DNA of 7,185 nt, from NCBI GenBank assembly GCA_003696125.1, contig RFHZ01000854.1, positions 1 through 7,185 on the forward strand. The letters run 5' to 3'. Numbering within the stretch: position 1 is the stretch's first letter; every line of letters begins with the position of its first letter. Made by a program: the position numbers and the translations under genes. The DNA comes from Nitrospinota bacterium (lineage in GTDB: Bacteria > Tectomicrobia > Entotheonellia > J063). A model generated the notes under the pieces. It saw nothing but the letters and a program-made list of their open reading frames with translations, ran no database searches and was not told where the DNA came from. Below are positions 4,268 through 7,185 of this stretch, one piece after another.

Positions 4268-5902
4268 TTAGTACTCGAGGTCACCCATGTCGTGGCTGTG
4301 CGGTGCGCCCGCCTTCTCCTTCTTCTCTTCCGGCACCTCGGTGATCAGCGCCTCGGTGGTCAGCATGAGCGCCGCGATGCTGGCCGCATTCTGCAGCGCA
4401 ATGCGGGAGACCTTCACCGGATCGATCACCCCGGCTGCGACCAGGTCTTCATAGGTGTCGGTGGCCACGTTGTACCCGAAATTCCCCTCTTCTTCCTTTA
4501 CCTTCTGCACCACGATCGATCCTTCCAGGCCGGCGTTGGCCACCAGTTGTCGCAGCGGCTCTTCCAGGGCGCGCTTGACGATGTTTACCCCGATCTGCTC
4601 GTCACCGGGGAGTTCCAGTTTCTCCAGGGCAGGTAAGGCCCGGATGTAGGCCACGCCTCCACCCGGAACGATCCCTTCTTCCACGGCGGCCCGGGTGGCG
4701 TTGAGCGCATCCTCTACCCGCGCCTTCTTCTCCTTCATCTCCGTCTCCGTGGCGGCACCGACCTTGATCACCGCCACTCCGCCGACCAGTTTGGCCAGCC
4801 GTTCCTGCAGCTTTTCCCGGTCATAGTCCGAGGTGGTCTCCTCGATCTGGAGCCGGATCTGTTTGACCCGTCCTTCGATATCCTCCGGTTTTCCTGCTCC
4901 CTCTACGATGGTGGTGTTATCCTTATCGATGGTGACACGGCGGGCCTGTCCGAGATCTTCCAGGGTCAGGTTCTCCAGCTTGATGCCCAGGTCTTCCGAG
5001 ATCATCTTCCCACCGGTCAGGATGGCGATGTCTTGCAGCATGGCCTTGCGGCGATCACCATAGCCGGGAGCCTTGACCGCAGCGCACTTGAGCGTTCCCC
5101 GTAGCTTGTTCACCACCAGGGTGGCCAGCGCTTCCCCTTCCACATCCTCGGCGATCACCAGCAGCGGTTTCCCGGAGCGTGCCACCTTCTCCAGGAGGGG
5201 GAGGAGGTCTTTCATCACGCTGATCTTCTTCTCATGGATCAGGATATAGGTATCCTCCAGCACCGCCTCCATCTTCTCCGGGTCGGTGACGAAGTACGGG
5301 GAGAGGTAGCCGCGGTCGAACTGCATTCCCTCCACCACTTCGAGGGAGGTCTCGATCCCCTTGGCCTCTTCCACCGTGATCACGCCATCCTTACCCACCT
5401 TCTCCATCGCTTCCGCGATCAGATCACCGATGACCTGGTCCCCGTTGGCCGAGATGGTACCGACCTGGGAGATCTCCTTCTTATCTTTGACCGGCTTGCT
5501 CAGCTTTTTCAGCTCTTCCACCACCGTCTCGACCGCATGTTCGATGCCGCGTTTGATGGCCATGGGGTTGGCCCCTGCGGTCACGTTTTTCAGTCCTTCC
5601 CGGTAGATCGCCTCTGCCAGCACGGTGGCCGTGGTGGTCCCATCTCCGGCCACATCACTGGTCTTGGAGGCGACTTCGCGGACCATCTGGGCACCCATGT
5701 TTTCGTAGCGGTCTTCCAGTTCGATCTCCTTGGCCACCGTTACGCCGTCTTTGGTGATGGTAGGCGAGCCCCACTTTTTGTCGAGGACCACGTTACGACC
5801 TTTGGGACCCAGGGTCACCTTGACCGCCTTGCTCAGCTTCTCTACGCCTTGCAGGATCTCCTGTCGGGCTGCTTCGCGAAATACGAGTTGTTTTGCCGGC
5901 AT
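4268..5902 (-). CDS. groEL: Chaperonin GroEL (Hsp60)
   Basis: A 544-residue 60-kDa chaperonin subunit. It forms the double-ring cage that folds cytosolic proteins with ATP and GroES. Near-invariant segments are seen: [19 protein letters not shown] (28-46), [13 protein letters not shown] with D52, [15 protein letters not shown] with D87, and [19 protein letters not shown] with the ATPase Asp near residue 398. The numbering stays level with E. coli GroEL through the N-terminal ATP site. The C-terminus does not have the usual Gly-Gly-Met repeats. It ends [13 protein letters not shown], a short acidic tail with two His. The start has AAAGGAG (5913-5919) 10 nt upstream. The gene follows groES by 25 bp on the same strand, the standard operon order, and would be transcribed from the sigma-54 promoter at 6310-6325. 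Confidence 0.99.
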
Positions 5903-5927: not shown

Positions 5928-6215
5928 CTATTTGAGAATCGCTAGCACATCATCTTCCCGCAAGATAACACACTCTTCCCCGTTCAGTTTCACTTCCGTT
6001 CCCGCGTACTTGCTCATCAGGATCTTATCCCCTTCTTTGACCTCCATCGGGATGCGTTTGCCGTCATCGGTGAGCCGGCCCGGCCCTACGGCCAGGACCT
6101 CTCCCTGTTGTGGCTTTTCCTTGGCCGTATCCGGGATGATGATGCCACCCCGTTTGACCTCTTCCTCTTCGATCCGCTTGACTAAGATCCGGTCAGCGAG
6201 CGGTTTTACCTTCAT
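5928..6215 (-). CDS. groES: Co-chaperonin GroES (Hsp10)
   Basis: A 95-residue subunit of the heptameric lid that caps Gro[21 protein letters not shown] starts the beta-barrel. The mobile loop spans about residues 16-33, with the GroEL-binding hydrophobic tripeptide as III in [26 protein letters not shown], the roof-loop region, [13 protein letters not shown] and the final [10 protein letters not shown] are all typical. Length and sequence are normal for the family. The start is supported by AAAGGAGG (6224-6231) with 8 nt spacing. It is first in the groES-groEL operon, with an approximately 85-nt leader if transcription begins from the sigma-54 promoter upstream. Confidence 0.99.
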
Positions 6216-6309
6216 CTTTTTTTCCTCCTTTCTTCTGCTCTAGAATACTCCTGGCGCCTTATTATCACTCCTCGAGTTCGCTTCATCGTGAAGTCCCGCT
6301 CTGGAAAAA

Positions 6310-6325
6310 AGCAATTCGTGTGCCA
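6310..6325 (-). promoter_or_regulatory. Sigma-54 (-24/-12) promoter of the groES-groEL operon
   Basis: On the minus strand TGGCAC (6320-6325), five bases, then TTGCT (6310-6314). GG and GC are separated by exactly 10 nt, as sigma-54 requires, and both boxes fit the TGGCAC-N5-TTGCW consensus. A T-run follows the -12 box. Start of transcription is expected near 6299, about 85 nt before the groES ATG. The promoter points at groES, lies in non-coding DNA and is preceded by a sigma-54 activator gene. No sigma-70 promoter of similar quality and no CIRCE operator is visible here. Confidence 0.8.
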
Positions 6326-6409
6326 TGGGAAAGAGGAGGCGCGATGCCGCCTGGAAAAGGGTCTACGGGGAGTCCCTCCTCTCTGCCGCTACCCGAAGAC
6401 GGGCCGGAC

Positions 6410-6425
6410 TTTGCCCAAATGGCAG
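6410..6425. promoter_or_regulatory. Putative activator-binding site, proximal copy (16-bp repeat)
   Basis: TTTGCCCAAATGGCAG, identical to the copy at 6511-6526. It contains the dyad TGCC-N5-GGCA and, overlapping it, TTTG-N2-CAAA. It lies about 85-100 bp upstream of the -24 element, the usual distance for an enhancer bound by a sigma-54 activator. The binding protein is inferred to be the product of the adjacent upstream gene, with no direct evidence. Confidence 0.55.
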
Positions 6426-6427
6426 GC

Positions 6428-6510
6428 GAGAGAAGGGGAAAGGAGAGGGCAGGAGCGGGAGGTTGTGGGGCCAGAAAAGGGGAAGAGAGGGGGAGGATAG
6501 GGGGAGAGGA
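6428..6510 (-). other. C/T-rich, G-poor tract between the two 16-bp repeats
   Basis: The minus strand is strongly pyrimidine-rich here (long runs of C and T, few G), and the plus strand is correspondingly purine-rich. It lies just past the stop codon of the activator gene, on that gene's sense strand. C-rich, G-poor RNA is the classic loading sequence for Rho. The tract may therefore end activator transcription before groES, or it may simply be a spacer between the two putative operators. No coding potential is supported in 6216-6531. Confidence 0.35.
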
Positions 6511-6526
6511 TTTGCCCAAATGGCAG
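6511..6526. promoter_or_regulatory. Putative activator-binding site, distal copy (16-bp repeat)
   Basis: A second exact copy of TTTGCCCAAATGGCAG, 101 bp from the first. It starts 5 bp beyond the stop codon of the sigma-54 activator gene and lies about 190 bp upstream of the groES -24 element. The flanking bases of the two copies are not alike, so this is not simply a longer duplication. That favours a conserved binding site. Confidence 0.55.
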
Positions 6527-6531
6527 AGGGC

Positions 6532-7185
6532 TCAGGCGATTTGGTACTGCTTCTGTTTGCGGTACAGGGTGCGGAGACCAATGCCCAGGATTTCCGCCGC
6601 TTTCTGCTTATCGTAGCCCACGCTGCGCAGGGTCTGCTCGATGGCCACCTTCTCGATCTCCTCCATGGTCATCCCCACCCGCAGGTGGATGGTGGTGTCC
6701 GTGGCATTATCCTGGCGGAGCAGGTGTTCGGGGAGGTCAGACACATCGAGGACGCGGTTGGGGGGGGAGAGGGCCACCATCCCTTCGATACAGTTCTTCA
6801 GTTCCCGGATATTGCCGGGCCAGTGGTAGCGCAGGAGGAGATCCATCGCCCCGCGGGTGATCCCGGTGATGTTCTTGCCACTCTCCTGGTTAAACTCGCG
6901 GATAAAGGTGTCTACGAAGAGGGGAATATCCTGTTTCCGCTCTCGCAGCGGGGGGATCTTGAGGGTAACAACGTTCAGGCGGTAGTAGAGGTCTTCCCGG
7001 AATTTCCCCTGGCGGACCAGCTCTTCCAGGTCCCTGTTGGTGGCGGCGATCAGCCGGACATCGACACGAAAGGTGGTGGTACCGCCGACGCGCTCAAACT
7101 CGCGTTCCTCCAGGACACGGAGGAGCTTGGCCTGGGTGGAGAGGGAGATCTCGCTGATCTCGTCGAGGAACAGGGTACCGCCGTC
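6532..7185 (-). CDS. Sigma-54-dependent transcriptional activator (NtrC family), C-terminal part
   Basis: The last 217 residues of a bacterial enhancer-binding protein. The frame is open to the window edge and the N-terminus lies outside. The visible part begins inside the AAA+ domain at Walker B ([10 protein letters not shown]). It continues with [15 protein letters not shown], sensor I ([15 protein letters not shown]), the arginine-finger region ([12 protein letters not shown]), [11 protein letters not shown] and sensor II ([10 protein letters not shown]). The C-terminus has a Fis-type helix-turn-helix ([22 protein letters not shown]) that binds enhancer DNA. Walker A, the sigma-54-contacting GAFTGA loop and any receiver, GAF or PAS domain lie beyond the edge, so the signal it senses is unknown. 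Its stop is 316 bp upstream of groES in the same orientation, with two repeated dyads and a sigma-54 promoter between. This suggests it regulates the chaperonin operon. Confidence 0.95.

Follow-up and report, generated by a model that had tools for sequence, protein, structure and literature searches.

A groESL operon likely controlled by sigma-54 and an adjacent activator through paired upstream dyads

Bacterial heat-shock control is taught in terms of RpoH, HrcA/CIRCE, CtsR and HspR. In Myxococcus xanthus the heat-shock protease gene lonD is activated via sigma-54 by the NtrC-type protein HsfA, with HsfB, and groESL3 of Bradyrhizobium japonicum depends on sigma-54 together with the enhancer-binding activator NifA. 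The latter operon is cited in PMC6604987 as co-regulated with nitrogen-fixation genes. Sigma-54 promoters have also been predicted at a broad scale before groES, grpE and dnaK in Bacteroidota and Planctomycetota (PMC12316311); the available text of that work names no activator or enhancer motif for those genes, whereas here a motif, its spacing, an adjacent activator and further targets are linked. Sigma-54 control of groESL itself is already known, from Bradyrhizobium and NifA, or predicted elsewhere. In the literature searched, which misses most subscription papers, we found neither a sigma-54 heat-shock regulon with a defined activator nor an account of the enhancer motif, the activator family and the combined regulon presented below. 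We judge the system to be a variant of sigma-54 control of groESL.

The DNA analyzed (the window) is a whole contig of 7185 bp (C252) from the fragmented metagenome bin G000, an assembly of 4.18 Mb in 990 contigs with 94.8% completeness and 8% contamination. Its minus strand carries, in the order of transcription, the C-terminal part of an activator gene, an intergenic region of approximately 316 bp, groES and groEL. The following features were located:

6532..7185, minus strand: C-terminal 217 aa of a sigma-54 activator, comprising a partial AAA+ domain (Pfam PF00158, Sigma54_activat), a lid (PF25601, AAA_lid_14) and a Fis-type HTH (PF02954, HTH_8)
6513..6525, minus strand: distal enhancer-like dyad TGCCATTTGGGCA, just past the activator stop codon and 101 bp upstream of the proximal copy; centre 195 bp upstream of the -24 GG
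6412..6424, minus strand: proximal enhancer-like dyad TGCCATTTGGGCA; centre approximately 94 bp upstream of the -24 GG
6325..6310, minus strand: sigma-54 promoter TGGCACACGAATTGCT, TGGCAC-N5-TTGCT with GG-N10-GC, matching the consensus at 11 of 11 positions
6298..6300, minus strand: predicted transcription start, approximately 12 nt 3′ of the -12 GC according to general sigma-54 promoter geometry, giving a leader of approximately 84 nt
6225..6230, minus strand: ribosome-binding site AGGAGG 5′ of groES, by direct reading of the sequence
5928..6215, minus strand: groES, 95 aa (open reading frame; Pfam Cpn10, E 4.4e-37)
4268..5902, minus strand: groEL, 544 aa (open reading frame; Pfam Cpn60_TCP1), in one operon with groES and 25 bp 3′ of it

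A preliminary description of this DNA had reported a consensus -24/-12 promoter reading into groES and, upstream of it, a co-oriented gene for an NtrC-family activator. Both are borne out. TGGCACACGAATTGCT, which sits 110 bp 5′ of groES, is the sole zero-mismatch -24/-12 match in the window, and the probability of an 11/11 match with GG-N10-GC was estimated as P = 5e-5 by first-order simulation of 316 nt on one strand. Sigma-54 itself is encoded in G000 (rpoN, PF04552 at C633, E 1.4e-64). The Pfam domains agree with an activator of the type proposed, although only its last 217 residues are present: the N-terminus lies beyond the contig end at 7185, and the sensory domain is outside the available sequence.

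The same description had overlooked two dyads of the form TGCC-N5-GGCA between the activator gene and the promoter. Each is contained, as TGCC-ATTTG-GGCA, in one copy of an exact 16-bp direct repeat whose copies are 101 bp apart. Only two perfect copies of the 13-mer TGCCATTTGGGCA exist in the assembly, both of them in the window. Such distances are usual for the enhancers bound by sigma-54 activators, and the dyads, placed like enhancer sites, are predicted binding sites. Neither NifA-type (TGT-N10-ACA) nor NtrC-type sites were found in the intergenic region. The window resembles B. japonicum groESL3 in having groESL under predicted control of sigma-54 and an enhancer-binding activator, and differs from it in lacking NifA sites. 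One-mismatch neighbors of the 13-mer in other genomes occurred at the control level and were rejected as chance-like, with the exception of a G000 contig (C88) described below.

Control of groESL is also the point of likeness to HrcA/CIRCE, and HrcA is encoded in G000. That control is negative, however, and no CIRCE with three or fewer mismatches was found in the G000 assembly, which includes a second groEL only without its 5′ part. The best candidate 5′ of the window groES has seven mismatches and was rejected. The preliminary description had raised the question of a second groESL with CIRCE. A second groEL fragment does exist (C594, L124), 71% identical to the window groEL and adjoining glnA; it is cut on the 5′ side and its promoter lies off the contig. 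On the G000 contig with hrcA, grpE and dnaJ, sigma-54 sites and intergenic dyads are both absent. A scan of 6200-6640 gave neither a sigma-70-like promoter nor a terminator, and no RNA thermometer or other Rfam element gave a match at the gathering threshold.

These results bear on the possibility that groESL is transcribed mainly from an unrecognized housekeeping or ECF-type promoter, the sigma-54 site being a minor or conditional second one. Cells normally depend on GroEL, which requires a basal level of expression, and diverged promoters escape consensus scans. Basal levels may be supplied by the second groEL, which would equally free the window copy to be conditional. The absence of a sigma-70-like site from the region scanned and of CIRCE from the assembly argues against such a main promoter, as does the fact that the sigma-54 arrangement is strongly conserved elsewhere, and we consider it somewhat unlikely.

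Comparison of the activators located that conservation. The best matches of the window protein belong to a single family from a different lineage (f26), with identities of 66% in G313, 65% in G175 and 64% in G028; the next group is well below. In G313 and G175 the activator gene is directly upstream of groESL and co-oriented with it, and dyads and a -24/-12 site lie between them. The G175 dyad is TGCCATTTGGGCA, letter for letter, and that of G313 is CGCCATTTGGGCA. The distance from the start of the proximal dyad down to the promoter is 99 bp in the window and 102 bp in each of G175, G313 and G028, the last of which has kept promoter and dyad at groESL with the activator gene located elsewhere. 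An Eisenbacteria locus (L068, 459-2565) repeats the order of the window, from an activator gene through two dyads and a weaker -24/-12 site to groES; its activator has a degenerate receiver and 32% identity to the window protein, and the locus may be an independent or ancient version of the arrangement. The conservation among relatives to which the preliminary description had looked is therefore only partly found: distant genomes have the full arrangement, but it is not conserved within the class, where the groESL copies of four genomes (G001-G004) are preceded by CIRCE with 0-2 mismatches and by no strong sigma-54 site.

The contig could have come from contamination or, by recent transfer, from the f26 lineage, and the arrangement would then be uninformative about the host. 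The 8% contamination of the bin, the closeness of the activator to f26 and a groEL tree that puts the window near sigma-54-linked groELs fit this explanation. Composition speaks against it: tetranucleotide usage of the window correlates at 0.935 with the mean of the other G000 contigs and at only 0.47 with f26. In the groEL tree, moreover, grouping with class relatives was not rejected (AU p 0.23), and for this reason we do not claim horizontal transfer. A foreign origin of the contig appears very improbable.

It could also be supposed that the promoter is real and the neighboring activator not cognate, another activator acting in trans and the adjacency being accidental. There are 19 activator matches in G000, and one-mismatch dyads of a similar type adjoin another activator gene, on C749; the candidate regulator was not seen next to groESL in G028, G280, G043 or G252. 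Against accidental adjacency stands the recurrence of the order activator, dyad, promoter, groESL in G175 and G313, with activators 65-66% identical to that of the window, and of activator, dyads, groES in the Eisenbacteria locus. We therefore regard a non-cognate neighbor as improbable. Predicted control of groESL by sigma-54 and the neighboring activator is well supported, because rpoN is present, the enhancer-like dyads are paired, the arrangement is conserved in another lineage and CIRCE was not found in the assembly.

Full-length orthologues of the window activator are proteins with a receiver (Response_reg), an AAA+ domain and a Fis HTH, and in this they differ from NifA, which has a GAF domain. 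Candidate regulators in G043, G252 and G280 were picked by similarity. The activators of the window, f26, G280 and G043 cluster together in a tree with moderate support (SH-aLRT 83-86). Upon alignment with ordinary receivers, the phospho-acceptor Asp was seen to be replaced by Glu in the f26 and G280 proteins, by Pro in the G043 candidate and by Arg in the Eisenbacteria protein; no aligned protein has an unaltered acidic pair, not even that of G252, which retains the Asp. From these orthologues we infer the state of the window activator's own receiver. This degeneracy of the orthologous receivers makes ordinary kinase phosphorylation an improbable route for the signal. The resemblance to HsfA/HsfB and lonD, as that system is generally described, lies in an NtrC-type activator and sigma-54 acting on a heat-shock gene; unlike the activators with degenerate receivers seen here, HsfA is regarded as a response regulator that undergoes phosphorylation and has a partner kinase.

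A comparison across many phyla covered 110 groES upstream regions. CIRCE with three or fewer mismatches is present in 56 of them, and a strong sigma-54 site without CIRCE in six, the window included. With the window excluded, the dyad is present in 3 of the 5 regions that have such a sigma-54 site, versus 4 of 103 of the rest (Fisher p 0.0016). A pattern search over 386 genomes placed a sigma-54-like site 40-100 bp 5′ of groES in eight, and in no case in the reversed control; one of the eight sites (G007) is an overlapping CIRCE. In Verrucomicrobia and relatives (L016, L024, L034, L044, L047, L048) the groES upstream regions have neither CIRCE nor a strong sigma-54 site.

We then asked which genes follow the combined signature, a dyad with a sigma-54 site after 85-145 bp. 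This pattern gave 26 matches in 57 genomes, versus 2 in the control. A second survey covered all 386 genomes, with an AT-rich dyad core required, and gave 28 matches in 17 genomes versus a single match in the reversed control. Proteostasis or heat-shock genes follow 24 of the 28, in about ten families: groESL (six matches: G000, G175, G043, G115, G252, G280), dnaK (two: G005, G276), clpB (three, in three genomes of genus g115), lon (four matches on three genes, in the same three g115 genomes) and hsp20 (nine). The clpB and lon genes were identified by eye from translated N-termini, while dnaK and three of the hsp20 genes were confirmed with Pfam. The remaining four matches precede other genes, for example a DsrE-like gene in G163. 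The targets common to the signature are heat-shock genes and not nif genes, which is a further difference from the NifA system.

Within G000, matches are limited to groESL and one weaker candidate. On the minus strand of C88 (L291) the dyads TGCCATTTGGACA and TGCCAAATGGGCA, at 5037..5025 and 4945..4933, precede a promoter TGGTATGTCCTTTGCT at 4865..4850, which has a 9/11 match and lies downstream of both. The element reads into genes for an exported NPCBM-associated protein and for an ABC-2 permease, which probably form a second G000 target with this type of enhancer. An ABC-2 transporter cluster, with an ATPase, a permease and a GldG-like protein, comes after groESL at the f26 loci of G313, G175 and G028 (L258, L259, L186); the second candidate target in G000 is likewise an ABC-2 operon.

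The survey also bears on what the activator responds to. The dyad could be generic to the activator subfamily and carry no heat-shock meaning, with the window activator answering a non-heat signal, as the preliminary description had proposed. The four matches before other genes and the envelope/ABC-2 operon as second candidate in G000 would be in line with a generic site. For such a site, on the other hand, it would be unexpected that 24 of 28 unbiased matches fall at heat-shock or proteostasis genes in about ten families, and we think it unlikely. What stands of the earlier proposal, that groESL is induced by a dedicated signal through the neighboring activator, is the control by sigma-54 and activator, on the evidence of rpoN, dyads, conserved order and missing CIRCE. 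The further claim of a specific program rather than general heat shock is not supported, as dyad and promoter precede clpB, lon, dnaK, hsp20 and groESL elsewhere, which looks like a regulon for heat shock or proteostasis. Since the same enhancer marks these genes, the signal is likely to be protein-folding stress and not a separate metabolic program.

We are fairly confident that groESL is controlled by sigma-54 and the adjacent activator via the two dyads, likely for chaperone induction under folding stress. Promoter, dyads, activator gene, conserved order and the link to heat-shock genes in other genomes are seen in the sequence itself; DNA binding by the window activator, looping, transcription and the signal we infer, as follows. 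Sigma-54 polymerase would wait in the closed state at 6325..6310. The adjacent AAA+ activator would bind both TGCC-N5-GGCA dyads, at 94 and 195 bp upstream, contact the polymerase by looping and remodel and open the complex via ATP hydrolysis, so that groESL would be made once the activator is on. The likely output is induction of the chaperone by a positive route under protein-folding stress, instead of HrcA/CIRCE derepression. The trigger is perhaps a protein or ligand contact, possibly chaperone feedback, rather than a classical sensor kinase.

A broader reading is that of a multi-phylum sigma-54 heat-shock regulon, in which a family of activators with pseudo-receivers that cannot be phosphorylated would recognize TGCC-N5-GGCA enhancers and directly turn on groESL, dnaK, clpB, lon and hsp20 in place of RpoH or HrcA/CIRCE, the window being a version with the regulator beside groESL; here our confidence is evenly balanced. 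The same signature at heat-shock genes of several unrelated lineages points to a little-recognized way of running the heat-shock response. In G000 the signature was found only at groESL and C88, so that a heat-shock regulon is predicted for other genomes rather than for this one. An enhancer-dependent, ATP-driven positive route would differ in kinetics, be tightly off without its activator and need a stress sensor, and the degenerate receiver raises the concrete question of what switches the activator on. Because an enhancer motif is shared and a candidate regulator is at hand, cultivable relatives offer a direct test of the idea.

A looser pattern adds dyad and promoter pairs in front of G028 groESL and G280 rpoN. 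In the latter genome (G280:C3, L208/L271) the dyad TGCCGAGCAGGCA and the promoter TGGCATAGCAGTTGCT are directly 5′ of rpoN, which suggests autoregulation of sigma-54 within the same regulon. In genus g115 (G115, G252, G379; L204-L229) dyads and a sigma-54 site are found before clpB, lon, hsp20 and groESL, a near-complete predicted sigma-54 heat-shock regulon.
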